Source: Acidobacteriota bacterium | Lineage (GTDB): Bacteria > Acidobacteriota > Terriglobia > Terriglobales > Acidobacteriaceae | Assembly: GCA_021780315.1 (NCBI GenBank) | Contig: JAJXYY010000018.1 | Coordinates: forward strand, 1 to 64,000 | DNA length: 64,000 nt | Direction of reading: 5' to 3' | Shown: positions 922 through 14,799 of the stretch, one piece after another | Numbering within the stretch: position 1 is the first letter of the stretch | Layout: each line of letters starts with the position of its first letter | Translations under genes and position numbers: made by a program | Notes under the pieces: model-generated | Told to the model about the DNA's origin: nothing | Database searches by the model: none | What the model saw: the letters and a program-made list of their open reading frames with translations, nothing else

Positions 922-3765
922 GTGCCTGAGACTCCCGAGCAGAAAGCTCGCCTGGAAATCGACGATGACCTTGTAGCCGCCGGTTGGCTGGTACAGAGTC
1001 GTGACGAACTCGACCTTACCGCTGGTCGGGGCGTCGCCGTGCGCGAGTTCCCCATGAAGCAAGGGTTTGGCTTCGCAGACTATCTCCTTTATGTGGACCG
1101 GAAAGCCATCGGCGCGGTCGAAGCAAAAGCCGAAGGCACTTTGACTGGAGTGGAGGCGCAATCGGCCAAGTATGCCGCCGGTCTGCCGGATAATCTACCT
1201 GCCCATCGGAGGCCGCTACCATTCCTGTTCGAATCGAATGGCGCGGTCACCTACTTCACCAACGGCCTTGATCCCGCTCCGCGCAGCCGCCAGGTGTTCA
1301 ATTTTCCCCGGCCTGAAACGCTCGCAACCTGGGTTGCACAGGACCGGCAACTTCGCGCCCGCTTGCAGGCACTCCCCGAACTGGACCCGGCTCATCTATG
1401 GAGCGTCCAGGCCCGCGCCATCGCCAGTTTGGAAGAGTCCTTTGCCAAAGCCAACCCTCGCGCATTGATTCAAATGGCGACTGGCTCCGGCAAAACCTTC
1501 ACCGCCGTCAATATCGCGTATCGACTACTCAAGTTCGGCAACGCCAAGCGCATTCTCTTTTTGGTGGACCGCGCCAACCTCGGCAAGCAGGCCGAGGACG
1601 AGTTCGCCAACTTCGAGCCGCCAGACGACCCACGAAAGTTTCCGCAGCTCTACACCGTTCAGCGGCTCAAGACGAACTCGATCAACCCTGCCGCGAAGGT
1701 GGTCATTACCACCATCCAGCGCCTCTACTCCATGCTGAAGGGGGAGACCGAGTTCGACGCCGGCAATGAGGAAGGCTCCGGCTTCGATACGGCGAAGCCA
1801 TGGGAGGGCGAACCGCCCGACGTGGTCTACAACTCCGCCATTCCACCAGAGTTCTTCGACTTCATCGTCGTCGATGAGTGCCACCGCTCCATCTATGAAC
1901 TTTGGAGCCAGGTACTGCTTTACTTCGATTCGTTCCTCGTTGGCCTCACCGCCACGCCCAGCGGCAAGACCATCGGCTTCTTCAATCAAAATATGGTCAT
2001 GCAGTATGGCCACTCCGAGGCTGTCACTGATGGTGTGAACGTGGACTTCGATGTCTACCGCATCCGTACGCGCATCACGGAGCAGGGCGCGACCATCGAA
2101 GCCGGAGACGCTGGGGTCTACGTGGACAAGCGCCACAAGCTCACTCGCGCCGAACGGCTCGAACTGCTCAACCAGGATTTGACCTACACCGCCACCAAGC
2201 TCGACCGCGATGTCGTCAGCGAGAGCCAGATTCGCACCGTCCTCCAGCAGTTCCGCGACAAGGTGCTGCCGGAAGCCTTCCCCGGACGCACCGAAGTTCC
2301 GAAGACCCTCATCTTTGCCAAAGACGACTCACACGCCGACGACATCGTCCGCATTGCCCGCGAAGTCTTCGCCGAAGGCAACGATTTCTGCCAGAAGATC
2401 ACCTACCGCACTGGCTTTACCAAGCGGACTCAGACCGTCAAGAACAGCGATGGCACGGAATCCGAGGTCACCGACTGGGTCAGGACATCGACGCTCACAC
2501 CGGATGAAATCCTTACCAACTTCCGCAACAGCTTCTATCCCCGCATCGCCGTCACCGTGGACATGATCTCCACCGGCACCGACGTTAAACCCATCGAGTG
2601 CGTTGTCTTCATGCGCAACGTCAAGTCGGCTGGCTTCTTTGAGCAGATGAAGGGTCGCGGCGTCCGCGTCATCTCCCCGGACAAGCTCCGCGTCGTCACG
2701 CCCAGCGCCCGCTCCAAGGAGCGCTTCATCATCGTCGATGCCGTCGGCGTCTGCGAGCAGGACAAGACCGAGTCGCAGACCCTCAATCGCAAGCCCGCCG
2801 CCACGCTGCCGGAGCTGCTGGAATATGTTGCTCAGGGCGGCACCGATTCCGACGCCCTCATCACGCTCGCCGGGCGGCTCTCCCGGCTCCAGCGCGACTT
2901 CGCTCCGGCCCAGCTCGCCGAGCTGCGCGACCTTGCCGGTGGCAAGTCCATCGCAGACATCTCCCACGACCTGCTCACTGCCTGCGATCCGGACACCCAG
3001 ATCGCCGCCGCTCAGGCCATTGCTGGCCCCGGCAATCCGCCAACAGAGGCCCATCTGCAAACCGCAGCCGAGCAGCTTGCGCAGCAGGCCGTCACGCCAT
3101 TGCATAAAGCCGCCCTGCGCCGCCGCATTCTTGAGATTCGTGCGCACAACGAGCAGACCATCGACCGCCACAATCTCGATGAGGTGCTCTACTCCGGCTT
3201 CGATGCCGTCGCTGTCGAGCGGGCGCAGTCCAAGGTGCAGGACTTCCGCCGTTGGATTGAAGAACACCACAACGAGCTAACCGCGTTGCAGATTCTCTAT
3301 GCTGGAACGCGCCCGCTGCGGCTTTCACTCGCAGACCTGCGGCAGCTCCGCGACGCGCTCGCCCGTCCGCCGCTGACGGCCACACCTACACAGCTCTGGT
3401 CGGCCTTTCAGGCCGTCGAGGCAGACAGAGTCAAAGGCAACGGCGGCAGCCAGCTCGCCGATCTCGTCATGCTCGTCCGCCACGCGCTCATTCCGGCGCT
3501 CACGCTCGTGCCCTACCGCGAAGAACTGCGTACGCGCTATGAGGCATGGCTCCAGGAGCGCAACGCCGAGCAGACCTTTACCCCGGAGCAGCGCGAGTGG
3601 CTCGACCGCATGGCCGAGCACATTGCCAACAGTCTCAGCATCGAGCCTGACGACTTTGAGATGGGATGGTTCGCCCAGCATGGCAGCATCGGCAAGGCCC
3701 ACGCGCTCTTTGGCGCGCAGTTGGCGCAGTTGCTCGCCGAAATGAATGAGAGGCTGGTCGCTTGA
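922..3765 (+). CDS. hsdR: Type I restriction endonuclease subunit R (HsdR)
   Basis: 947 aa. ATP-driven DNA translocase and nuclease subunit of a type I restriction-modification complex. A PD-(D/E)xK-type nuclease signature lies near residues 53-70 (ADYLLY then EAKAEG). The superfamily 2 helicase core follows: MATGSGKT (about 186-193), VVDECH (about 316-321) and LTATPS (about 342-347). The last 250 residues look like the EcoEI-type R C-terminal domain. An in-frame stop at 913-915 leaves GTG at 922 as the first usable start; no clear ribosome binding site precedes it. It overlaps hsdS by 4 bases, so R, S and M are probably one transcript. Confidence 0.93.
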   Translation: MPETPEQKARLEIDDDLVAAGWLVQSRDELDLTAGRGVAVREFPMKQGFGFADYLLYVDRKAIGAVEAKAEGTLTGVEAQSAKYAAGLPDNLPAHRRPLPFLFESNGAVTYFTNGLDPAPRSRQVFNFPRPETLATWVAQDRQLRARLQALPELDPAHLWSVQARAIASLEESFAKANPRALIQMATGSGKTFTAVNIAYRLLKFGNAKRILFLVDRANLGKQAEDEFANFEPPDDPRKFPQLYTVQRLKTNSINPAAKVVITTIQRLYSMLKGETEFDAGNEEGSGFDTAKPWEGEPPDVVYNSAIPPEFFDFIVVDECHRSIYELWSQVLLYFDSFLVGLTATPSGKTIGFFNQNMVMQYGHSEAVTDGVNVDFDVYRIRTRITEQGATIEAGDAGVYVDKRHKLTRAERLELLNQDLTYTATKLDRDVVSESQIRTVLQQFRDKVLPEAFPGRTEVPKTLIFAKDDSHADDIVRIAREVFAEGNDFCQKITYRTGFTKRTQTVKNSDGTESEVTDWVRTSTLTPDEILTNFRNSFYPRIAVTVDMISTGTDVKPIECVVFMRNVKSAGFFEQMKGRGVRVISPDKLRVVTPSARSKERFIIVDAVGVCEQDKTESQTLNRKPAATLPELLEYVAQGGTDSDALITLAGRLSRLQRDFAPAQLAELRDLAGGKSIADISHDLLTACDPDTQIAAAQAIAGPGNPPTEAHLQTAAEQLAQQAVTPLHKAALRRRILEIRAHNEQTIDRHNLDEVLYSGFDAVAVERAQSKVQDFRRWIEEHHNELTALQILYAGTRPLRLSLADLRQLRDALARPPLTATPTQLWSAFQAVEADRVKGNGGSQLADLVMLVRHALIPALTLVPYREELRTRYEAWLQERNAEQTFTPEQREWLDRMAEHIANSLSIEPDDFEMGWFAQHGSIGKAHALFGAQLAQLLAEMNERLVA

Positions 3766-5327
3766 GTGAACGTAATACCCAACGATTACCTGAAGGGTGG
3801 GTCATTGCATCGCTGCCAGAGATAGCGGCAATTAACCCTGCTACCGATCGCCTGACCAGCGATGATGCAACGCCGGTCAATTTCGTTCCAATGCGGGCAG
3901 TCGAGCCGGAGGGTGGTGGACTTGCAAATCCTGAGGTTCGCCCCTATGGCGAAGTGAAGAAGGGTTACACCTCATTCCTCAGTGGCGATGTAATCATGGC
4001 CAAGATTACTCCTTGCATGGAGAACGGAAAGACAACCGCCGTTCCTGACTTGCCAGGCAAACTTTGTTTTGGTTCCACGGAGTTTCATGTAATCCGAGCT
4101 GAAGATGGAGTGCAGCCAAAATGGATCTCAAACTTTTTACTTCAGCATGAGGTCCGCCGTGTTGCCCAGCGCCAGATGACCGGTGGAGTCGGCCAGATGC
4201 GCGTGCCAGCTTCGTTCCTGCAAGGTCTGCAGATTCCAGTCGCGCCAATTGCGGAGCAACAGCGCATCTCTGATGCGCTCGATGAATTGCTCTCCGATCT
4301 GGATGCAGGGGTGGAGGCGTTGCGGCGGGCGCAGGCAAAGCTGGCGCTCTATCGCGCCTCTGTGCTGAAGGCTGCCGTGCAGGGCGACCTTACCGCCGAG
4401 TGGCGCAAGCAGCATCCCGATGCCGAACCGGCCCCTGTGCTGCTCCAACGCATCCTCACCGAGCGTCGCCACCGCTGGGAGCAGGAGCAGCTCCGCAAGT
4501 TCAAGGCTGCTGGCAAAACTCCACCCGCCAACTGGAAAGCAAAGTACAAAGAACCCGCAGCCCCCGACACCACCAACCTGCCCCCACTCCCCAAAGGCTG
4601 GTGCTGGGCCTCTATCGACCAGCTCTGCTACGAAGTCCGCAACGGTTATTCCAGTAAACCGGATGCCGCGAATGGTGTCCGGATATTTCGGATCAGTGCT
4701 GTTCGCCCGTTATCGCTCGATTCCGACGACGTACGATTCCTCCCAGGCACAGAAGAGGAATATGCTGATTTTCTCGTATCGAGCGGAGATCTACTATTCA
4801 CAAGGTACAACGGGACAACTTCATTAGTTGCTGTCTGTGCATTAGTTCCGAATAACATCAGCGCTACGGTCCACCCGGACAAGCTAATTCGGGCTCGTCT
4901 CGTTTCCAGCGAGGTCAGCGGAAGCCTTGTTGCACTTGCTGCAAATGTAGGAGCATCGCGCGCTTTCTTGGAAAGTCGGATCAGGACAACGGCTGGACAA
5001 GCTGGGGTCTCAGGCTCTGATATCAAGCAGACGCCAATTCCGTTACCACCGTCTTTCGAACAGCAGTTGATTGTCGATACTACCGATGACCAACTATCCG
5101 TACTGGAACACCTGAAAGCGGATTTAGAGTCCAAGAACATACGCTCACAGTCGATGCGCCAATCCATCCTCCGCCACGCCTTCACCGGCCAACTCGTTCC
5201 GCAAGACCCGAACGACGAACCCGCGAGCGAGCTGCTGAAGCGCATCGCCGCTGAGCGGGAAACTCGCAAGAAGACAAAAGCAACTCCGCGGAAGCAGACG
5301 GCGAAGCGGCAGAAACGAGAGAAATAA
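3762..5327 (+). CDS. hsdS: Type I restriction-modification specificity subunit S (HsdS)
   Basis: 521 aa. Chooses the DNA target for the HsdR/HsdM complex. Two target recognition domains can be made out: residues 1 to about 165, and about 280-430 beginning after LPKGWCWASIDQL. Each is followed by a conserved helical spacer: EQQRISDALDELLSDLD near 165-180, and EQQLIVDTTDDQLSVLEHL near 428-446. Further conserved stretches are VLKAAVQGDLT and ILRHAFTGQLVPQDPNDE. The tail is very basic. The only start compatible with the overlap is TTG at 3762, sharing 4 bases with the end of hsdR. The stop overlaps the hsdM ATG by one base (TAATG), indicating translational coupling. Confidence 0.92.
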   Translation: MSERNTQRLPEGWVIASLPEIAAINPATDRLTSDDATPVNFVPMRAVEPEGGGLANPEVRPYGEVKKGYTSFLSGDVIMAKITPCMENGKTTAVPDLPGKLCFGSTEFHVIRAEDGVQPKWISNFLLQHEVRRVAQRQMTGGVGQMRVPASFLQGLQIPVAPIAEQQRISDALDELLSDLDAGVEALRRAQAKLALYRASVLKAAVQGDLTAEWRKQHPDAEPAPVLLQRILTERRHRWEQEQLRKFKAAGKTPPANWKAKYKEPAAPDTTNLPPLPKGWCWASIDQLCYEVRNGYSSKPDAANGVRIFRISAVRPLSLDSDDVRFLPGTEEEYADFLVSSGDLLFTRYNGTTSLVAVCALVPNNISATVHPDKLIRARLVSSEVSGSLVALAANVGASRAFLESRIRTTAGQAGVSGSDIKQTPIPLPPSFEQQLIVDTTDDQLSVLEHLKADLESKNIRSQSMRQSILRHAFTGQLVPQDPNDEPASELLKRIAAERETRKKTKATPRKQTAKRQKREK

Positions 5328-6832
5328 TGGACGCATCGCAGATTGGAAAACGGGCGTGGAGCTACGCCGGAGTGCTGCAGGACGCGGGGCTGAGCTGCTT
5401 TGAGTATGTCGAGCAGTTGACGCTGCTGCTCTTTCTGAAGATGGACGACCAGCAGACCGAACCGCCCTACAACCGCCAGCCGCTGGTGCCACCGGAGCTG
5501 GGCTGGAAGACGCTGCTGCCGCTCGAAGGCGCATGGCTGGAGGAGAAGTACCGCGAGATTCTGGAGAAGCTCTCCCTGAAGCCGGGGATGCTGGGCGTGA
5601 TCTTCAAGAGCGCCCGCTGCGAGATCAATAGCCCTGCACTGCTGAAGCAGCTCATCGTGAACCTGATCGACAAGGTGGACTGGCTCAGCCTCTCGGTGGA
5701 CGTAAAAGGCACCATCTACGAGGAGTTGCTGCAACGCTCCGCCGCCGAGTCTGCGCGCGGTGCCGGGCAATACTTCACGCCGCGCCCGGTGATCCAGACC
5801 ATGTGCGAGGTGACGCAGCCCACGCCCAACGACCAGATCTGCGATCCCGCCGCCGGAACAGGCGGCTTCCTGTGCAATGCCTACCAGTACGTCCTGGACC
5901 GTTTTGAGAAAGACCTGGACCGCGACCAGAAGCGCGCGCTGAAGGAAAATCTCGTCGAGGGCATGGAGCTATCACCCAAGGTTGGCCGCATGTGTGCCAT
6001 GAACCTTTCGCTGCATGGCATCGGCGGCGATCGGGACAAGATTGTCATCCATCCCGGCCATGACAGCCTGGCCGCGCCGTGGAGCAAGGAATACAGCATG
6101 GTGCTGGCCAATCCTCCGTTCGGCAAAAAGCAGAGCCTGCTCTTTGTGAACGAAGAAGGCGACATGGAGAAGGACGATCAGATCATCGTCCGCGAAGACT
6201 TCTGGACCTCGACGAGCAATAAGCAGCTTAACTTCGTCCAGCACATCTACTCACTGCTGAAGATCGATGGTCGTTGTGCCGTGGTTCTGCCAGACAACGT
6301 GCTCTTCGAAGGCGGAGCGGGTGAGAAGGTCCGACGTAACCTGCTACAGAAGTGCCGCGTGCATACGCTGCTGCGCCTGCCCACAGGCATCTGGTATTCG
6401 CCAGGAGTGAAGGCGAATGTTCTCTTCTTTGACAAGAAAGAAGGCCGTGCCGAGGCATGGACGGATAAGCTGTGGGTTTACGACCTGCGCACGAACATGC
6501 ACTTCACGTTGAAGCAGTCGCCGATCCAGCGAAAAGACTTCGATGAGTTTGTGGAGTGCTACAAGCCCGGCAAGCTGCACAAGCGCAAAGATACCTGGAG
6601 CGAAGAAAACCCCGATGGCCGCTGGCGCGGCTACGATTACGAGGATCTTCTGAAGCGCGACAAGCTGAGCCTCGATCTCTTTTGGATAAAAGACAAGAGC
6701 CTGACAGATACCGACTCGCTCCCCGCGCCAGATGTGCTTGCTCAGGAAGTGGTAGACGACTTGGAAGCTGCGCTGGAACAATTCAGCAAGATTGCAGCCC
6801 GGCTCGCTCCCAAGGTCGAACAGGAAGCATAG
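5327..6832 (+). CDS. hsdM: Type I restriction-modification DNA methyltransferase subunit M (HsdM)
   Basis: 501 aa N6-adenine DNA methyltransferase; modifies the host recognition sequence and is also needed for restriction. The N-terminal helical HsdM domain covers about 1-130. The SAM-binding motif I is DPAAGTGGFL (about 173-182) and the catalytic motif IV is NPPF (about 262-265). GQYFTPRPVI upstream of motif I is typical of the family. It is the last gene of the R-S-M operon and faces the minus-strand defence cluster across a 180-base gap with no gene and no strong terminator hairpin. The order R-S-M is less usual than R-M-S. Confidence 0.95.
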   Translation: MDASQIGKRAWSYAGVLQDAGLSCFEYVEQLTLLLFLKMDDQQTEPPYNRQPLVPPELGWKTLLPLEGAWLEEKYREILEKLSLKPGMLGVIFKSARCEINSPALLKQLIVNLIDKVDWLSLSVDVKGTIYEELLQRSAAESARGAGQYFTPRPVIQTMCEVTQPTPNDQICDPAAGTGGFLCNAYQYVLDRFEKDLDRDQKRALKENLVEGMELSPKVGRMCAMNLSLHGIGGDRDKIVIHPGHDSLAAPWSKEYSMVLANPPFGKKQSLLFVNEEGDMEKDDQIIVREDFWTSTSNKQLNFVQHIYSLLKIDGRCAVVLPDNVLFEGGAGEKVRRNLLQKCRVHTLLRLPTGIWYSPGVKANVLFFDKKEGRAEAWTDKLWVYDLRTNMHFTLKQSPIQRKDFDEFVECYKPGKLHKRKDTWSEENPDGRWRGYDYEDLLKRDKLSLDLFWIKDKSLTDTDSLPAPDVLAQEVVDDLEAALEQFSKIAARLAPKVEQEA

Positions 6833-7012: not shown

Positions 7013-7483
7013 CTACCGGTCTCCTAGCCACCATGGCCATAAGGACCTCAACCATGATCTCTTCGAGGGTATGGGTGAACCCTGTAGCGTCAGGTTCGCC
7101 GGTCGTTCATGAGCTACAGTTTCGTCCGGGGCATCTTCGTTGCTGAAGTACTTTTGCTTTGATCGCCGATCGTAATCTCGGTTGGCGTCGACCCGCTTCT
7201 GTGACCAGTCCTCATCCCAACGCACCCTGTTGTTCCTGATCCAGTAATGTGAACGACATGGAAAGTCCCAGTTGCCGATTGATGGATGGAGCGAAACGGT
7301 CTTACCATCAAACGTGAGCTTCCAGTCTGTCGGCTTCAGAGGGGTGACGACCTTTGTCTTGCAGCCACAGGCGCAAAGGTGTGTGACCGTGGCAAAGCGG
7401 ATCGAGACATAGATCGTCCCCTCCTGAAGTTCCTCGGGAATGAACTGTACGAATTCATGCTTGAAGGTGACGGGCTGTTTCAT
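7013..7483 (-). CDS. DUF6527 family protein, last gene of the ubiquitin-like module
   Basis: 156 aa, cytoplasmic by sequence. N-terminal half: [18 protein letters not shown], then a Cys-rich site CACGC near residue 38, and PCRSHYWI near 75-82. These Cys and His residues suggest a metal site. The combination matches my memory of DUF6527, a family found beside prokaryotic E1-like and multiubiquitin genes; its activity is not established. The C-terminal 50 residues are basic and end in a Trp-rich tail ([11 protein letters not shown]) that might touch membrane. Its ATG overlaps the E1-like gene stop by 4 bases, so the two are probably translated in a coupled way. Confidence 0.7.
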
Positions 7484-8691
7484 TCGTCGGGCGTTTCCTC
7501 CTTCAAGGGTTTGTCTTCGTTAATCAGTTTATTCGTGGCCGTGTGGAACTGGCTGTGGTGCTCAGACTTCATATCGAGATAGAAGCCGAACAGCTTCTTC
7601 CATTTGACGACAGCCAGTGCGGCGTTCAACGCGTTCAGGTCCGCGACCTGGATGTTGCGGTTGTACTCGTTGTTGCCGAGATCCTCGAAGGAAACACGGC
7701 CGCGAAAATGGTCGCGCCTGCCAGGCGTGCTCGTCGTGACGCGCACGGCACCCGCCAGCATCTCGTCGCCGAGACGCACGCCCATCCCGACATCGACGAA
7801 CGGAATGTTGAATTCCTCCAGCTTCCGGATGATGAGTTTCTTGGATTCACCGCTGTCCACACAGACAAAGACGAAGTCCATGCCACGTAGCTCCTCCACG
7901 TTGCTTTCGTCGACGTAAACCGGGTGATCCTTCACCCCGGAATGCATCTTCGAATAGATGCCCTTGAACCATGTCGCTTTCAGCTGCTGGGTTTCAAGCT
8001 CTGCCAGCGTCGGAGCGCCCGGGGACCGGAACGCGTTGTGCTGAAGGAAGACGTCCCCGTCGTAGAGATGGATCTCCCACACAGGCGTCTTTGCGACAAG
8101 GTCGAGCACGTAGGAACCCGTGCCGCCCAAGCCCACTAGAGCGATGCGCTTCAGCTTCTTGAGCTTCGCCGTGACCACGTCGATCTCGGCTCGGCTTGAA
8201 GCCGTATCGAGGTAGTTGAAGGGCGTATCCGGTTGTTCCTTTTCGGCAGCGATGACCTTGTTCGTCTGTGGCCTTGCAGACGGGTCGATGAGCTGGGCCG
8301 GGCCCGCCAGGAGCGCCGCATAGGTTGCCACCTTCTTGTGATAGTTCGGGTAGGCGTCATCCGGCTTTGGCTTCGCCGAGAACGAATGCTGGATGACCAC
8401 GCCGTCGGCGAGCGTGCGTTCGCCGCTAATATGCTTGATCTCCGCGATCTCCGTGCCGTCGGGGTTGCAGGGATGGTCTCCTGCGAAGTACGCCACATGA
8501 TTGTCGGGTTTGGTGGTCATGTCGCCGGCGAGGACCAGCTTCATGACGAGCGTGCCGCGTTGTACTTCCTTGCGGGAGTTCACATACGGCACGCCCTTCA
8601 CCAGCAGAAATCCGGCTTTGATCTCCAACTCATAGCCGTCGTTCTGCAGTTTCTGCAAGTCCCAGCTACGACTTATCAGTTGCCGTGACAT
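7480..8691 (-). CDS. E1-like adenylyltransferase: DUF6791 N-terminal domain plus ThiF domain
   Basis: 403 aa. The C-terminal half is a ThiF/E1 Rossmann domain: [14 protein letters not shown] (about 184-197) binds [12 protein letters not shown] (about 211-219) supplies the conserved Asp and Asn, and [10 protein letters not shown] (about 276-285) carries the Mg-ligand Asp position. E1 enzymes adenylate the C-terminus of a ubiquitin-like protein. The N-terminal 150 residues match my memory of DUF6791 ([31 protein letters not shown]), which accompanies ThiF domains next to multiubiquitin genes; its role is unknown. I cannot point to a clear catalytic Cys loop. It overlaps the multiubiquitin gene by 26 bases and the DUF6527 gene by 4. 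Confidence 0.85.
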
Positions 8692-9127
8692 CGAAGACCA
8701 TCCCGTCTTTGACGTAGACCTTGCCGCCGGGCATCAGGCTTCCCGACGGATTCTTGTGCGGGCCATCCTCGTAGCCCACCGTGTAGCGGATGTTTGGACC
8801 CGTGACCGGCGTCGGAAACGCGAGCTGAACGATCTGCTCATAGGACACAATTTTCGTCGTGACCATCTTCTCCTGGCCGTTCACGTAGATCGTGTAGTCC
8901 TTTGGCTTACCGCTGTGAAAGTGCTCGTCTTCCTTCAAGTGGACCGGTTCCGGCCCGTTAGGTACTTCCGGATCCTCGCGGTCGCCTGTCACCTCGCGAT
9001 ACAGTTCCAGGCCAGGTTCTACCTTGCCCAGCGCATACAAAGCGGCACCCGTTGTGGGGTTCGGCGAATGGTATGCGTGCTGATCGATGAAAATCTTCAC
9101 CTCGTGCTTATGCTCATGCTCGGACAT
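8666..9127 (-). CDS. Multiubiquitin domain protein (two ubiquitin-like repeats)
   Basis: 153 aa with two beta-grasp-like repeats, about residues 8-70 (VKIFIDQHAYHSPNPTTGAA, REVTGDREDP) and 77-150 (YTIYVNGQEKMV, YEQIVQLAFP, YTVGYEDGPHKNPSGSL). This is the multiubiquitin arrangement, a polyubiquitin-like protein encoded beside an E1-like gene. The protein ends TATDKS and has no C-terminal Gly-Gly, so the modification chemistry, if any, is unclear. The ribosome binding site AAGGAG lies 9 bases before the ATG. It is separated from the upstream small gene by 97 bases holding a strong hairpin. The role as tag or scaffold is inferred from the family and neighbours. Confidence 0.85.
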   Translation of the reverse strand: MSEHEHKHEVKIFIDQHAYHSPNPTTGAALYALGKVEPGLELYREVTGDREDPEVPNGPEPVHLKEDEHFHSGKPKDYTIYVNGQEKMVTTKIVSYEQIVQLAFPTPVTGPNIRYTVGYEDGPHKNPSGSLMPGGKVYVKDGMVFDVTATDKS

Positions 9128-9183
9128 TTGTGTTTCTCCTTATGTACAGACACACTTCTAGCGCCCTAGACATCGGTGATAAG

Positions 9184-9215
9184 CTTGGTGGGCCGGGTTG
9201 TTCCGGCCCGCCAAG
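9184..9215. promoter_or_regulatory. Strong hairpin between the YjzC-like and multiubiquitin genes
   Basis: Inverted repeat with 13-base arms (CTTGGTGGGCCGG and CCGGCCCGCCAAG, 12 of 13 paired) and a 6-base loop. It begins 10 bases after the YjzC-like stop on the minus strand. No T run follows in either direction, so it could be a weak or Rho-assisted terminator, an RNA processing or stability element, or a polarity device that sets different levels for the genes on each side. Confidence 0.6.
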
Positions 9216-9224
9216 CGCGCGCCT

Positions 9225-9416
9225 TTACTTCCCGGATTTGTGCTGGGCAGGGTCCACGAGTTTATATGTGGTTCCCTTGACGGGTGCTGGAGGCAACGGT
9301 TCTCCCTTCACGGAAGTCACCTCCGAACCCTTTCCGCCACGGGGTCCGATCTGCTGATACAGGCCGGACACCGGGACGGTCTCACCGGGTCTCAATCCAC
9401 TGGGTCTCTTCGACAT
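9225..9416 (-). CDS. Small YjzC-like protein in the defence cluster
   Basis: 63 aa. The sequence GLRPGETVPVSGLYQQIGP followed by RGGKG resembles the core of the small Bacillus protein YjzC (RPGQ, GIY, then a Gly-rich turn), and I recall such proteins annotated as YjzC family near multiubiquitin loci. Function unknown. It is hydrophilic, with no membrane segment, and ends KSGK. The start is well supported: AAAGGAGGTG lies about 7 bases before the ATG, the best ribosome binding site in the cluster, suggesting high expression. It sits 33 bases after the protease gene. It could be a substrate, an inhibitor or a carrier; nothing in the sequence decides. Confidence 0.6.
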   Translation of the reverse strand: MSKRPSGLRPGETVPVSGLYQQIGPRGGKGSEVTSVKGEPLPPAPVKGTTYKLVDPAQHKSGK

Positions 9417-9449
9417 TGTTTTTCACCTCCTTTCTTTTCTGAACGAAAC

Positions 9450-11789
9450 TCATGTGCGCGCCTTGATCCGCGCCGCCGCGCGAACCGTAAGGTTCTGCGA
9501 CTGGAAGCGGTTGCGGACAAGCTGCGCCATCTCGTCGTAGACGCGAACCTTCTTCTGCGGATCGGCGATCGTCACGATCAGTGAGAACGGCTGCGGCTTA
9601 AATGCGTCCTCGTCTTCAATGCCGTGCCGAGTCAGCAGGCGAAGCATCATGCGCCAACGCTCGCCGCGCTCGCCGTTCTCCATATTGCCGTGATAGGTCC
9701 GCACGGGAGCCCACTTGCGGAGCTTCTCAACCTGGTAGGACTCGTAAAGCTCGCCTGCGTTCTTGTGCTCGGGGGGCACCAGGCCGACGAATTTCAGCTT
9801 CGGCTTGACAAGACCCGTCTCACGAGACTTTTCTTTGCGGTAGACGCCGAAGTGAGCGTCGATATGCGTCTCGCAATACTCCGTTCCCCAGCGCGCGCCG
9901 CGTGCCGGCGCGAATGCCACCGTCATCCAGACCTCGCCATAATATTTACCGTCGCGCTTCAGCGATGGCGGATAAGGAAAATCGTTCCATTCGAGGAAGT
10001 ACCCGGGCCGCAACACGTCGTCAAAGACAAGGGTTGACGTGTAAGGCGTGCATTCGAGGCAGTAAGGCACAGGCTCGGGCAGGCCGAAGCCGAAAAAATT
10101 CTCTTCGCCATCCGGCACCCGCTGTGAAGTCCGGGGATCGCGTGCGTGATGCGTGAGCAGCGCCCGAGCAAGCACGGGTGACGGCGTGGGCGTTACCTGG
10201 TGATAGATCTGCGCCAGCGTTCGCGCAACCAGCGGCGTCGCGAAGCTCGTACCGAGATTTTCTGCCGAGCCGTTTCCATTGACCGAGCGAATGCCGGAGA
10301 TGTGTGAAGCATCCGTCGCGCAAGCGCCGCCGTAGTGAACGAGGTCGGGCTTGATGATGTGATTCGGCCCGGCTCCATGCCGCGAGAACGCTGATGGGTG
10401 ATCCGTCTTCGGTCCTTTGACCTTGTAGTCGACGTGAGACACCGCGCCCACTGTAATGCCAAGAACACTGTCCGCCGGCGCGGTAATGCGCCCGGCGGCC
10501 AATTGTTTGCCGGTACGGGGATAATCCAGCAGTGGCGGCGTGTCGTAGTTACCGGCACTGATAACGAATGAGACTTGATACTTCTCCTGAAGGTTGTCGA
10601 GTTCTTCAGCCAGTTCGGAAAACCGATCGAGCGAGCAAACCGCGTTCGTGCCGAGCGACAAGTTCCAGACCTTGAATTTGTTGGCGTGTTGCTTCAGCGC
10701 CTCGTCGAGCGTTTGAAGAAACTCGGATTCAAACAGTGGCAGGGTGCTTCCTTTGGCCGGATCATCGTTCGGGATGACCTGGAGGTCATAGACCCCGCAA
10801 GGGCCGTCATCCAGGCCCTTGATCGTGGGATTGAGCTGGCTGCCCCAACAGATCAACCCTGCGACGAAGGTGCCGTGATCGGTGTTCCGGTAAGCCGGCG
10901 CAACCTCCGAGTTGCGGCCCGCGACCCAGGCCTCAAGGCCGGGAACACGGCTCTCGATGCCGCTGTCCACAACGACTACCACCGGGAAGTCCCCGGCGAT
11001 GTCCGCCGGCGTCGGTAGCGGGGGCAAAGGCAGCGCGGCAAACATGCGCGGTCGAATTGTGCGGATCAGCGGCATCGGCGCAATCGAGCGCACACCGATG
11101 ACACGAGAGAGAGCCTCGACATCGTCCACTGTCCGGCATTCAGCTTCATAAGTGAAGCTCGATGGTGAATACCCCCGCGTGCGCAAGGCAATGTCGCGTC
11201 GTTTGCAGGCTGCCTGCAAATCCGCGACGAGCCGCGGTTGGTCCTGATCCGGCCCGAAGTTGAACAGTCCCACGCGCGTGATGAAGCCATCCTTTCCGCG
11301 CGGGCTGTTGCGAAGGACGTCGGCGGCGTCAAGGCCGCTGCGCCGGTACGAAGGCGTGACCGGCTCGATCGTCTCCACGCAGGAGAGCTCCTTCGTCATA
11401 CGCTCTGACGTGTTGCGCTCGATCAGATTTGTAAGGCGGTCAAGCCCTTCGGGTGTCGCCTTGACGAACAACTCACCAAGACTTCCTCCGCTCACGATGG
11501 GGCAGGATTGCGCGGAGAAAAGATGCTCGGGTCGGTGGCTCTTGGCGGCCGCCTGCGAGACGAGCTTCACCCTCACCGGGGCGGCGCCGGCCACCTTGAT
11601 CTGCGGAACGATCGCGGCACGGATAGCCGCGACCTGGCTTGAGAGAGACGCACGGTATTTTGAGTCGACGGGGCGGAACGGCTTTGGCGGCGGTCCGCCG
11701 CCGGGCACTTTCCTCTCGACATACTGTTTAGGCATGATCACCTTGATTAAAAGGCGTTCTTGCCGTGGTGGTCTCGGTGTATCAGCCAT
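9450..11789 (-). CDS. Subtilisin-like serine protease of an IetAS-type defence pair
   Basis: 779 aa S8 family peptidase. The catalytic triad is visible: Asp275 in VVVVDSGIES, His305 in DHGTFVAGLI, Ser515 in GTSFATPLVA, with oxyanion Asn413 in SAGN. There is no signal peptide, so it should act in the cytoplasm. About 260 residues precede the catalytic domain and 230 follow it; the N-terminal part is Pro/Lys-rich and may regulate activity or bind the ATPase. A cytoplasmic S8 protease directly downstream of an AAA+ ATPase is the layout of the anti-phage IetAS system. The start overlaps the ATPase end by 8 bases. Assignment to IetS rests on layout and motifs. Confidence 0.88.
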   Translation of the reverse strand: MADTPRPPRQERLLIKVIMPKQYVERKVPGGGPPPKPFRPVDSKYRASLSSQVAAIRAAIVPQIKVAGAAPVRVKLVSQAAAKSHRPEHLFSAQSCPIVSGGSLGELFVKATPEGLDRLTNLIERNTSERMTKELSCVETIEPVTPSYRRSGLDAADVLRNSPRGKDGFITRVGLFNFGPDQDQPRLVADLQAACKRRDIALRTRGYSPSSFTYEAECRTVDDVEALSRVIGVRSIAPMPLIRTIRPRMFAALPLPPLPTPADIAGDFPVVVVVDSGIESRVPGLEAWVAGRNSEVAPAYRNTDHGTFVAGLICWGSQLNPTIKGLDDGPCGVYDLQVIPNDDPAKGSTLPLFESEFLQTLDEALKQHANKFKVWNLSLGTNAVCSLDRFSELAEELDNLQEKYQVSFVISAGNYDTPPLLDYPRTGKQLAAGRITAPADSVLGITVGAVSHVDYKVKGPKTDHPSAFSRHGAGPNHIIKPDLVHYGGACATDASHISGIRSVNGNGSAENLGTSFATPLVARTLAQIYHQVTPTPSPVLARALLTHHARDPRTSQRVPDGEENFFGFGLPEPVPYCLECTPYTSTLVFDDVLRPGYFLEWNDFPYPPSLKRDGKYYGEVWMTVAFAPARGARWGTEYCETHIDAHFGVYRKEKSRETGLVKPKLKFVGLVPPEHKNAGELYESYQVEKLRKWAPVRTYHGNMENGERGERWRMMLRLLTRHGIEDEDAFKPQPFSLIVTIADPQKKVRVYDEMAQLVRNRFQSQNLTVRAAARIKART

Positions 11790-12945
11790 TGGTTTCTATC
11801 TCCGTTCCCGTAGCCCAGCGATGTGCCGTCGCTTTTGAAACGCCGAGCAGATCGGCGAGCGCGGCGTGACTGTACAGCTTGGCGTTTCTCTCGCGCAGTG
11901 AAGCCGCGATGCCCTGAACATCCTTGCTCCGCAAGAGCGACAGGAAGCGGCGGTCCTCTCCCTCGCCAATGCCGATGTTCTGAAGGACCTGGAAAGCATC
12001 CTTCAGCCCGGGATGCTCATGCTTCGTCAGCTGGCGGCGGCGGAGCCGCACGTAGACCTCGCGAATGTCCGAACCGGTAAACCCGTCGGACAGATCAACC
12101 AGGAGAGCGATCTCCCGCTCCGTGAAGTCCAGCGTGCCGCTGAAGGAGGTCCACATCTTCTCGCGCAACTCAGCAGTCGGGAAATCGAGTGCGAGGCGGT
12201 AGCTGAAGCGACGCCACACGGCGGAATCAAGTAACTCCTGGTGGTTCGTCGCCGCGATCACGATCGAGTGACTTCCCAGTGTGTCGAGGTTCTGGATGAA
12301 GCTATTCACAACCCGCTTTAACTCGCCGAGTTCCTGGCTGTCGCCGCGCAGCTTCGCGATGGCGTCGAACTCGTCGAGGAAGAGCACGCAAGGTGTTTTA
12401 GCCGCGAAGTCGAAAAGCGCACGGATGTTCTTCGAGGTGCTCCCGAGAAAGGACGAGATCAACCCGTCCAGGCGCGCCACGTAAAGATCGAGACCGAGTT
12501 CCTTGGCGATGTGCCGCGCGAGGCGGCTCTTCCCGGTCCCAGGAGGACCGTACATCAGCAAGCTCAAGGATGCGGACAGGCCATCGGCATCCGCCAGCGC
12601 GTAACTCTTCGCAATGCTTAGGAACTCGTTGACGGTATCCCACTGGTTTTGGCTGAGGATGACCGGTGCTTCTGACACGGTCTTGATGTTGACCTGTTCA
12701 ATCAGCGGAAACCTGCTATCTTCATCCACTGGCAGCGCCTTCGCAAACGCCGCACCAGCAGGGCGTAACTGCTGGTCACTCTCTTCGAGCATTTTGCGCA
12801 GCCGTGCTGCTGACGACTGATCTCCAGCCTTTTCGAGCTTATCTGCGAGAAATGCCGTATAGTTTCGCACCTTGTCTATATCGAGACGAAGAGCGCCATT
12901 TACGATACGAAATAGCTCGCTCATGAAACTTGTGTCTGCCTTCAT
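11782..12945 (-). CDS. AAA+ ATPase of an IetAS-type pair, with C-terminal HTH-like segment
   Basis: 387 aa. A helical N-terminal region (about 1-90) precedes one AAA+ module: Walker A GPPGTGKS (133-140), Walker B VLFLDEFD (187-194), sensor Asn234 in AATN, and Arg pair 245-246 in VWRRF as likely arginine finger. The last 30 residues (HAALADLLGVSKATAHRWAT) read like a helix-turn-helix, unusual for a protease-partner ATPase. The ATPase probably senses a trigger or unfolds targets for the downstream subtilase. ATG at 12945 lies only 6 bases beyond a candidate -10 box, so the message may be leaderless, or translation may start at ATG 12924 (MSELFRIVNG). First gene of the six-gene run. Confidence 0.88.
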   Translation of the reverse strand: MKADTSFMSELFRIVNGALRLDIDKVRNYTAFLADKLEKAGDQSSAARLRKMLEESDQQLRPAGAAFAKALPVDEDSRFPLIEQVNIKTVSEAPVILSQNQWDTVNEFLSIAKSYALADADGLSASLSLLMYGPPGTGKSRLARHIAKELGLDLYVARLDGLISSFLGSTSKNIRALFDFAAKTPCVLFLDEFDAIAKLRGDSQELGELKRVVNSFIQNLDTLGSHSIVIAATNHQELLDSAVWRRFSYRLALDFPTAELREKMWTSFSGTLDFTEREIALLVDLSDGFTGSDIREVYVRLRRRQLTKHEHPGLKDAFQVLQNIGIGEGEDRRFLSLLRSKDVQGIAASLRERNAKLYSHAALADLLGVSKATAHRWATGTEIETNG

Positions 12946-12951
12946 GAGACG

Positions 12952-12981
12952 ATAATTGCATTATGAGAGACGATATGTCAA
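12952..12981 (-). promoter_or_regulatory. Candidate promoter for the ATPase-protease-ubiquitin cluster
   Basis: On the minus strand a perfect -35 box TTGACA (12976-12981) is followed after 18 bases by AATTAT (12952-12957; 4 of 6 to TATAAT). A transcript would begin around 12945, at or next to the first ATG of the ATPase gene. Confidence 0.5.
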
Positions 12982-13395
12982 GCTGCCGTCCAGCTGGACA
13001 ATTTGGTGAGACGCTAAAGCCTCCCACGAGGTTCATCTCTGCTTTGTGGCCCTGCCATTTTCCCACTTACGACGTGAGTACACGAACCGCGCGTGTTTTG
13101 AACAATCTGGCCATCTTCTACCCGGATTTTGGCAAAGGTCAAAATGAGGAAGGGCAGGTTCGCTTAGATGACACCTAAACATCCCACCTCGAAACTACTG
13201 CAACGGGACTCGTCGAGAGCGTTAGCAAACCGGCTACCTTTGCATTAAGGCAGAGGTCTGGGCAGAGGTCTGAAGGGCAGAGGTCGTGGGTTCGATAAGG
13301 GTCTAATAAGCGTTGCCAAGGGTGTCTCAGGGCGCTCAAACGGGCCATTCGTGCCCCTGATTTCTATAAGTTACGCGTGGTAGGTTTGCTGTCAC
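12982..13395. repeat. Gene-free stretch with tRNA-like fragments and repeated GGCAGAGGTC
   Basis: I see no convincing gene here apart from the 3' end of the integrase remnant. The decamer GGCAGAGGTC occurs at 13249, 13261 and 13276, and again at 13396 inside the full repeat. The third copy continues as GTGGGTTCGA, close to the T-arm sequence GCGGGTTCGA of the full repeat. Just before the first copy, CTACCTTTGCATTAAGGCAG resembles an anticodon arm with extra loop bases. This looks like debris of several integration or recombination events at a tRNA-derived site. Confidence 0.55.
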
Positions 13396-13829
13396 GGCAG
13401 AGGTCGCGGGTTCGAGCCCCGTCGTCCCCGCCATACAAAGCAAAGAACTTAGCTTCGTATGGGACCTAAAGTGACAATCAAATCTGGGTTCGATATGGGT
13501 GCAGTAAGAACGCACCCAAGCTGAACGTGGGTGTGAATTACCCCTTGCTTCACCCAGATTGGGAACCATCATCTCTACAACCTTGCTCTGTGCGGCTCGC
13601 TTATGCGAGTTCACGGCCTGCGTGTATACGTCGAGCGTGATCCTGCTGTTGGCGTGCCGTAGGAGCTCCTGTACCGTCTTCACATCTTCCCCGTTTGCCT
13701 TGAGCAACGTGCCGAAGGAGTGGCGGAAAGTGTGCCAGCCGATGTTTTTGTGGATCTGGCTTTTCGTGCCACCGGCTTGATATAGCGCTTCATGAGATTG
13801 TCCGGCCAGTAGGGTTGCTTGCCTCCCAT
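13336..13829 (-). pseudogene. Tyrosine recombinase (integrase) remnant, frameshifted
   Basis: Only the catalytic C-terminal part is left. Reading on the minus strand, KQPYWPDNLMKRYIKPVARK occurs in one frame, and IHKNIGWHTFRHSFGTLL, then LLRHANSRITLDVYTQA, continue in another. One missing base near 13768-13775 separates them. HTFRHSF carries the catalytic His-x-x-Arg, LLRHA the second His and DVYTQA the tyrosine. The N-terminal domain and first catalytic Arg are missing. Past the catalytic part the frame runs through the tRNA-derived repeat, giving the nonsense tail MAGTTGLEPATSAV, which is simply the reverse complement of a tRNA 3' end. The integrase probably once moved an element into that tRNA gene. 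Confidence 0.85.
13396..13437 (+). repeat. tRNA 3'-end direct repeat, copy 1 (candidate attachment site)
   Basis: 42 bases identical at 41 positions to 16011-16052. They contain a T-arm (GCGGG, loop TTCGAGC, CCCGT) and an acceptor 3' strand CGTCCCC plus GCCA, that is, the 3' part of a tRNA gene. No matching 5' acceptor half (GGGGACG) lies upstream, so this is a fragment, as expected for an att site left by a tRNA-targeting integrase. Confidence 0.8.
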
Positions 13830-13883
13830 TGACGGACCTGATCCAGCCCGCACCCCAGCCGAGAACGCCGGCGCCGAACAGCG

Positions 13884-14799
13884 CACCGAACAAGCCGGGA
13901 ATCGCGTCCTGAAAGCGACCGCTCATCATCCGGATACGGTTCACTAGGAGACGTCTCCCGACTACCAAAAGAGAGAGACGGCCTATCCTCGAAGGGGTCG
14001 GCTTCTCGAACCGCGTAGCCGGCTGCCGTCATTGCCTTCACGATGTCGTCCGCGGTCCGGTCGCGCCCGAGGTTCCGAAACCCTCCAGCCAGCCGTCCCG
14101 CAATAACAGTGCGCCCTACGTCCAAAAGTCTCCGTAGAATGTCCGAAGCGTCTCGAATCGTCAACAAGACAGCCCGAACGTCGGTTGCGCTGCTGGAAAA
14201 GAATTGGACGGATGCCTCGATCAAGGCGAATTCGTGCGAGAAAACCTGGAGGCCTTCGACGTTCTGGTGATCCTGGCTGCGTGGCAGAGCGGCCCGCAAA
14301 TCCACCAGGCTGGTGCCGTGTGGCAGATTAGCGACTTTGTTGCGACCTTTGGGTGCTCGGACAATGAGCTGCTTCGGAACCGTTCGATTCCCAGCATGAA
14401 GCGAGAGAGAATGCTCAGGGGACAGACACCACTGCGTCTTGAAGCGTTCGCGGAGATACACGGCGCAGAACGCCAATACGAGGCATACCAGACAGTGCTC
14501 TCGCCTTCCACATCATCCGGTCGGCCAGGAATCAACCAACCGTTCATGACCCGCAAGAGAAAGCCGTGGGTCAACAATCGGTCCCGGTGTGTGCGGGAAA
14601 TGTCTTTGGCGCGGATCGCCGCTCCATGTTGACGTTGGAGTTTTGCGAGAACCTCCAGGGATTCGGCGAGCTTTTCTGAGGGAGTAGGGATGGTGTGTTC
14701 CGTTAGCTTTTTCGGCTGTTCTCCAGTTAGCTTTTTCTGTTGAACTCCCATTAGCTTGTTTTGTCGATTGGCTCCGAATTCAGCACTGATTCTACTCAC
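13884..14799 (-). pseudogene. Fic-type protein remnant, N-terminal region only, with frameshifts
   Basis: Three reading frames join into one ancestral protein. KLAESLEVLAKLQRQHGAA to STVWYASYW (from 14799) is one; FCAVYLRERF to AAGYAVREADPFEDRPS (from about 14476) is the second; VNRIRMMSGRFQDAIPGLF (to about 13884) is the third. The order and sequence match my memory of the N-terminal, AbiEi-like region of large Fic family proteins. Frameshifts lie near 14470 and near 13960. The Fic catalytic motif HPFxxGNGR is absent because the gene stops where the integrase remnant begins, so a deletion probably joined the two. Not expected to make a working protein. Confidence 0.7.
14702..14773. repeat. 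Three imperfect 24-base tandem repeats at the start of the Fic remnant
   Basis: Units at 14702-14725, 14726-14749 and 14750-14773 share (G/A)TTAGCTT with T-rich continuation and CTCC near the end. On the minus strand they encode the repeated peptide KLTGEQPK, KLMGVQQK and similar. Confidence 0.6.

Follow-up and report, generated by a model that had tools for sequence, protein, structure and literature searches.

An IetAS-type ATPase-subtilase pair and a multiubiquitin module joined in one six-gene cassette of an Acidobacteriaceae genome

Both halves of the cassette examined here are already known. IetAS (IteA/IteS in NCBI; also profiled by PADLOC) is an anti-phage pair of adjacent genes for an AAA+ ATPase, IetA, and an S8 peptidase, the subtilase IetS. 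The polyUbl operons of type 6e, as described in the passages devoted to them, combine a ubiquitin-repeat protein, a ubiquitin-activating (E1) enzyme and a metal-binding protein termed Y; some of the E1s carry a beta-rich domain, termed X, in the place of JAB (Iyer, Burroughs and Aravind 2006, PMC1779556). According to the passages on gene neighbours in a 2016 account of multiubiquitin cassettes, 70% of PF14452 proteins adjoin helix-turn-helix (HTH) plus COG2856/DUF955 loci, which that account interprets as toxin-antitoxin modules with a stabilising effect on the cassette (PMC4963859). Two further systems are Bub (bacterial ubiquitination-like), whose operons adjoin CapW, CapH plus CapP or CapK plus CapS (PMC13373217, passages on operon context), and Bil (BilABCD), with separate genes for a ubiquitin-like protein, a ubiquitin-conjugating (E2) enzyme, JAB and E1 (PMC11354881, passages on gene content). 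Here a cassette is described in which an IetAS pair is followed by a module of the multiubiquitin kind. It lies within the window, that is, the whole 64,000-nucleotide (nt) stretch analysed, which is taken from contig JAJXYY010000018.1 of an Acidobacteriaceae genome (assembly GCA_021780315.1; 47 contigs, 4.06 Mb).

The window shares with IetAS the same two genes in the same order, an arrangement also found on annotated plasmids, and differs from it in that a ubiquitin-like module follows and in that the pair falls below the NCBI equivalog cut-offs (IteA, 383.4 versus 510 bits; IteS, 503.1 versus 900 bits). The PADLOC profiles for an adjacent AAA+ ATPase and S8 peptidase both match, which bears out the likeness to IetAS claimed in an initial annotation of the window; judged by these scores, the pair is a divergent branch outside NCBI's narrow IteA/IteS family. 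With polyUbl type 6e the window has in common that a gene for a multiubiquitin protein (MUB) adjoins an E1-like (ThiF) gene, and the module appears to fit that type, in agreement with the initial annotation's description of a predicted ubiquitin-like pathway. It differs in that the six genes include neither JAB nor a separate inactive E2/RWD gene, and the type 6e passages show no IetAS-like partner. We identify domain X with DUF6791, and protein Y with DUF6527, by description only; the published metal signature, C-x(3)-C-x(35-38)-H-x(2)-C, is close to the C-x(3)-C-x(34)-C-x(2)-H of DUF6527, with the last two ligands swapped. Compared with the 2016 cassettes, so far as the passages on them go, the window and two further loci, termed here L002 and L004, have IetAS in place of the HTH plus COG2856/DUF955 pair.

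Resemblance to the other systems is partial. Citrobacter BubCD is the closest solved structure and best match in the Protein Data Bank (PDB) for the ThiF part, and relatives of the window's module adjoin WYL, HTH plus M78 or STAS-like genes, much as the cited Bub passages describe for CapW and its counterparts. The first part of BubCD, which we assume from entry names and the D104A mutants to be a JAB, is fused to its E1; in the window it is DUF6791 that precedes ThiF, no JAB occurs among the six genes, and IetAS is attached. Unlike Bil, the six genes also lack, by Pfam, a separate E2 family. The eukaryotic ubiquitin-p97-proteasome route is like the window, by analogy only, in that tagging enzymes here adjoin a Cdc48-like ATPase and a protease; it differs in that the run has no proteasome gene and its protease is a subtilase.

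The six open reading frames, all on the minus strand, span positions 7013-12945 with overlaps of 8, 26 and 4 nt and gaps of 33 and 97 nt, just as first annotated, and each frame is open at its coordinates. The proposed gene identities (by Pfam, PADLOC and NCBIfam for all but the YjzC-like gene) and the reading of the run as one unit are likewise supported. The cassette is composed of two modules: upstream, IetA and IetS together with a small YjzC-like gene; downstream, MUB, a DUF6791-ThiF protein (termed here the ThiF protein) and DUF6527.

The relatives compared here come from a scan of genomes with an alignment of 27 DUF6791-ThiF proteins and are the best 80 of at least 569 loci, from bacteria and archaea (counts over 90 loci, used below, include some places fetched twice). 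Nearest to the window's ThiF protein among these 80 is the Acidobacteriaceae assembly L002, which shares with the whole window a single blastn block (window 12982-7142, 88.3% identity over 5845 columns, about 5.8 kb), no further match at E <= 1e-5 being found in the 21-kb L002 locus. The upstream edge of this block is the -35 element of the IetA promoter; the other lies inside the DUF6527 gene. DUF6527 is 70-75% identical between window 7013-7483 and L002 11206-11646, the other five genes 93-95%, and the drop is held by the C-terminal tail, which suggests a recombination edge there. In L004 the order IetAS-MUB-ThiF-DUF6527 recurs on one strand without the YjzC-like gene and with 40 nt between IetS and MUB; its ThiF protein is 65% and its IetS 78% identical to the window's. 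This six-gene block and five-gene version lead us to reject a chance meeting in this genome alone. L004 is the same DNA as genome G615 (L136 has an identical core) and comes from another family of the class (f85 versus f1), so that the pairing extends beyond the window's genus.

How often the modules meet was assessed in a draw of 399 genomes of the class, the ThiF and IetS searches being taken as one and the same draw. The ThiF protein was found in 10 of them at E <= 1e-40. IetS occurs in 5 at E <= 1e-60, including one distant relative at 34%; both occur together in G000 and G615, adjacent both times (hypergeometric P 0.005). At these thresholds, IetS and the ThiF protein are both absent from the other genomes of the window's genus in this draw, of which G103 has a remote S8 relative, and the families of G615 (3/89) and G320 (1/200) yielded no IetS context beyond those of the draw. 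Counting the window, seven contexts of the IetAS branch, defined by an IetS identity of 67% or more, were drawn from the class genomes plus plasmid and viral matches; three have MUB, namely the window, L002 and L004. Two further linked metagenome contigs are suggested by exactly equal contig sizes rather than by sequence read: one of 7270 bp (IetS P0126, MUB P0296, ThiF P0019) and one of 11175 bp (IetS P0135, MUB P0299), where about 0.05 such MUB-IetS size agreements would be expected by chance, as judged from near-miss pairs.

Several of these counts weigh against a functional tie between the modules and for chance neighbours in mobile defence DNA with no selection for the pair. Joined modules are the exception on either side: only 2 of the 80 ThiF-gene relatives (L002 and L004) have IetAS immediately upstream of MUB, and four of the seven IetAS contexts (L137, L138, L120, L128) lack MUB. 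Without the window genome the co-occurrence P rises to 0.09, and L002 and the window, at 88% DNA identity, may share one recent origin. The initial annotation would have called this a chance meeting if such modules almost never neighboured each other and transcripts stopped at 9184-9215; half of that description applies, the modules usually being apart, yet the join recurs in L002 and L004. With the second case in the draw adjacent again, and with recurrence in L004 and probably in the two metagenome contigs against it, mere chance is a very improbable explanation.

The module boundaries are delimited without recourse to annotation by the edges of the blastn matches to the window: 12972-9466 only in L137, 12973-9236 only in L138, 9088-7184 only in L003, and both 12964-9466 and 8905-7230 in L004. 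These edges mark off promoter-IetA-IetS, an optional YjzC and MUB-ThiF-DUF6527. In trees made by a quick method only, the four IetAS-labelled rows of the ThiF tree require three changes (the label of P0019 coming from the size match and the context of the other P rows being unread), and the MUB-linked rows of the IetS tree require two. On the ThiF tree, L003, L005 and L121, which have no IetAS in the DNA examined, are interspersed with joined rows, and the IetS tree places L137 close to L004. Repeated joining of the two modules fits these placements; a single join followed by losses may also account for them.

The clean edges also suit a stack of two defence systems that act independently behind a shared promoter. 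On this view the MUB module would have lost its regulator and be no more than co-expressed with IetAS, and the two would act on different phages or at different steps. L137 has only IetA-IetS, L138 only IetA-IetS-YjzC and L003 only MUB-ThiF-DUF6527, and a type I restriction-modification set adjoins the cassette at 922-6832, defence genes being prone to cluster. Since each module stands alone elsewhere, such stacking is nearly as credible as the mechanism favoured below. Against it, the same order, strand and tight junction recur in rows that the (quick) ThiF tree keeps apart, and the joined module retains all three of its genes.

Within the downstream module, coupling is close. MUB precedes the ThiF gene in 79 of the 80 relatives, DUF6527 follows it in 78, and both hold in 77; as to the loci that deviate, L035 starts within the ThiF gene, the L018 contig ends inside a DUF6527 match, and in L022 that match lies 1.4 kb further on. 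The overlap between MUB and the ThiF gene is unusually fixed and sets the MUB C-terminus: across bacterial and archaeal loci, 84 of 90 show a length of exactly 26 nt. We read MUB-ThiF-DUF6527, from this conservation, as one old, tightly coupled unit. The window's MUB ends in ...TDKS, with no diglycine; a final Ser is found in 88/90 loci and T-D-K-S in 55/90. Because the overlap bases code for both proteins, this conserved tail is not readable as chemistry alone.

Residues of ThiF adenylation are invariant in the 27 sequences. Fold matches to a predicted model of DUF6791 are, weakly but consistently, E2 and ubiquitin E2 variant (UEV) entries, CdnG-E2 among them, and the domain has an invariant cysteine, C75; on the strength of this model and cysteine, DUF6791 is predicted to be an E2-like domain and the ThiF protein probably an E2-E1 fusion. 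No meaningful match in the PDB came from profiles of either DUF6791 or DUF6527, and a full-length fold search, filled by BubCD and other E1 entries, was set aside as uninformative for DUF6791. DUF6527 has C37, C39, C41, C76 and H79 (Met = 1) invariant in 28 sequences and is predicted to bind metal through them.

These features also bear on whether MUB might instead be attached by the ThiF enzyme to IetA or IetS, so as to prime or restrain the protease, as Cap2 does to the cyclases of cyclic-oligonucleotide-based anti-phage signalling systems (CBASS; PMC10449767). PADLOC E1-E2 profiles match the ThiF part, and Cap2 entries are among its fold matches, as CdnG-E2 is for DUF6791. An E2-like part before an E1 part is, moreover, what we take to be the Cap2 domain order. 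Most MUB modules, however, have no IetAS to modify, whence such regulation would be a recent adaptation; we consider it distinctly unlikely.

The usual neighbours of the MUB module are regulatory. Within 3.5 kb upstream, a divergent regulator-type gene occurs in 49 of the 80 loci (46 of 71 when only loci that extend 2.5 kb or more upstream of the ThiF gene are counted): an M78/IrrE peptidase in 37 (27 also with an HTH gene), HTH alone in 6, WYL in 3 and a STAS-like gene in 3. Eight loci have a regulator-type gene only in the same direction, and in the remaining 23 none was seen. (Classes were assigned by iterative profiles, representatives being confirmed by Pfam.) The HTH plus COG2856/DUF955 loci of the 2016 passages correspond to the HTH plus M78/IrrE pairs in our counts, and any novelty of this tie was accordingly dropped, as it is already in PMC4963859. 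By domain type, the neighbours counted would also fall into the classes named for Bub operons, and we think this more probable than a toxin-antitoxin role. No divergent upstream regulator gene was found in the joined modules of the window, L002 and L004, which sit behind the IetAS promoter instead. In L049 (5807-9181), L050, L055 and L061 an upstream gene joins M78/IrrE peptidase, UvrD helicase and PD-(D/E)XK nuclease domains (by Pfam in L049 and by sequence cluster in the others).

A subtilase is not a general partner of the MUB module, the S8 motif (in frames of at least 150 amino acids, aa) being found among ThiF-gene loci only in the window (L001), L002, L004 and L032. In the last, a remote IetAS pair (30-36%) is separated from MUB by an M78 gene and was counted as not adjacent; remote AAA matches in L012 and L016 were not counted as IetAS. 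In the archaeal (Nitrosopumilus) locus L065, an S8 protease gene recognised by Pfam but missed by the motif scan lies downstream of DUF6527 (12220-13896); this is a different MUB-protease pairing.

With regard to the upstream module, PDB matches of IetA are led by Rix7 and p97/Cdc48; together with NCBIfam comparison they reveal a resemblance to Cdc48 and to proteasome-activating ATPases. Motifs GPPGTGKS and FLDEFD, which we take to be Walker motifs, are intact in IetA, and the columns of IetS D275, H305 and S515, presumably the S8 triad, are invariant in 9 sequences.

The best single mechanism, put forward tentatively, is tag-guided proteolysis, a tag-and-degrade defence as the initial annotation also proposed. 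It is favoured because the pair is conserved as a unit, because no regulator gene belonging to the tagging module was found, and because a Cdc48-like ATPase lies beside a protease. MUB, the DUF6791-ThiF enzyme and DUF6527 would mark proteins during phage attack: the MUB C-terminus would be adenylated by the ThiF domain and carried by C75 of the E2-like domain, and DUF6527 would choose targets as an E3-like adaptor; IetA would then recognise the mark and feed tagged proteins to IetS. A more ambitious and rather unlikely version is a self-contained, proteasome-free immunity, assembled more than once, in which the E2-E1 fusion, by way of a cysteine-based E2-like domain, conjugates MUB to proteins of the phage or the host through a C-terminus that is not glycine, and the Cdc48-like ATPase and subtilase destroy the tagged proteins; this would be an analogue of the ubiquitin-p97-protease route.

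Joint expression would start at the IetA promoter, in which TTGACA (12981-12976) is separated by an 18-nt spacer from AATTAT (12957-12952), a 10/12 match. CGTCTC follows the -10 hexamer and directly precedes the IetA ATG. The single good candidate promoter of the initial annotation is a real match, one conserved in seven IetAS loci, but the scan count is no higher than chance (2 sites of this quality versus 2.1 expected), and support comes from the conservation, not the scan score. The shared layout is TTGnC (TTGACA in five loci), spacer, AT-rich hexamer, six CGTCTC-like bases and ATG, and with the hexamer six bases before ATG in the seven aligned loci a leaderless mRNA is predicted. The window and L002 have GTCTC at both -26 and -5 (two boxes 21 bp apart). 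L004 has the -5 box, L137 and L138 have the one at -26, and L128 has boxes at -46 and -5; among the seven loci GTCTC is absent before IetA in L120. Given these boxes and an HTH-like segment at the IetA C-terminus (weak Pfam HTH matches), we infer that IetA may regulate itself.

The YjzC label of the small gene is tentative because its Pfam scores, 17.1 bits in the window and 23.2 in L138, are below the cut-off of 25. The protein is 95% identical in L002 and 74% in L138, where IetA-IetS-YjzC is followed by a gene without Pfam match; as it there follows IetS without MUB, a place for the gene in the ubiquitin module only is not supported. In L059, a locus without IetAS, a YjzC-like frame (2545-2730; 25 bits; no Pfam match) lies upstream of MUB. 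The 97-nt gap between YjzC and MUB folds with a z-score of -4.57 versus -0.48 for the corresponding L002 gap, and the scan found no canonical intrinsic terminator at 9184-9215, the hairpin having no T-run.

Features of the cassette (Pfam scores for AAA, Peptidase_S8, Multi_ubiq, DUF6791, ThiF and DUF6527 all exceed the cut-off)
Feature	Position	Strand	Basis
IetA promoter	12946..12981	-	Scan match; layout common to 7 aligned IetAS loci
IetA, AAA+ ATPase, 387 aa	11782..12945	-	Pfam AAA 103.7 bits; PADLOC IetA 414.6 bits
IetS, S8 subtilase, 779 aa	9450..11789	-	Pfam Peptidase_S8 98.4 bits; PADLOC IetS 1387.6 bits
YjzC-like small protein, 63 aa	9225..9416	-	Pfam YjzC 17.1 bits, sub-threshold; homologues in L002, L138
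Hairpin without T-run, YjzC-MUB gap	9183..9216	-	Sequence scan and folding
MUB, multiubiquitin protein, 153 aa	8666..9127	-	Pfam PF14452 (Multi_ubiq) 71 bits
MUB stop/ThiF-gene start overlap, 26 nt	8666..8691	-	Exact in 84/90 loci
DUF6791-ThiF protein, 403 aa	7480..8691	-	Pfam DUF6791 181 bits, ThiF 40.5 bits; predicted model
DUF6527 protein, 156 aa	7013..7483	-	Pfam 92.4 bits

On one side of the cassette, the type I restriction-modification genes (R, S and M) lie on the plus strand and end 180 bp before it; they have no match in the 21 kb of the L002 locus. On the other side, a frame at 13336-13968 encodes a C-terminal phage-integrase domain and may be a mobile-element remnant.

The fusion of IetAS and MUB modules in one cassette appears to be new, as do the module boundaries and the E2-like interpretation of DUF6791; among the titles listed in searches of the open-access literature, none joined IetAS to multiubiquitin. 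To our knowledge, the characterised bacterial ubiquitin-like systems alter the activity or structure of their targets rather than sending them to a dedicated ATPase-protease pair. If tagging is indeed coupled to proteolysis here, the cassette would be a minimal counterpart of the ubiquitin-proteasome route; even if it is not, the boundaries of the modules are fixed and DUF6791, a domain of unknown function, is predicted to be E2-like.
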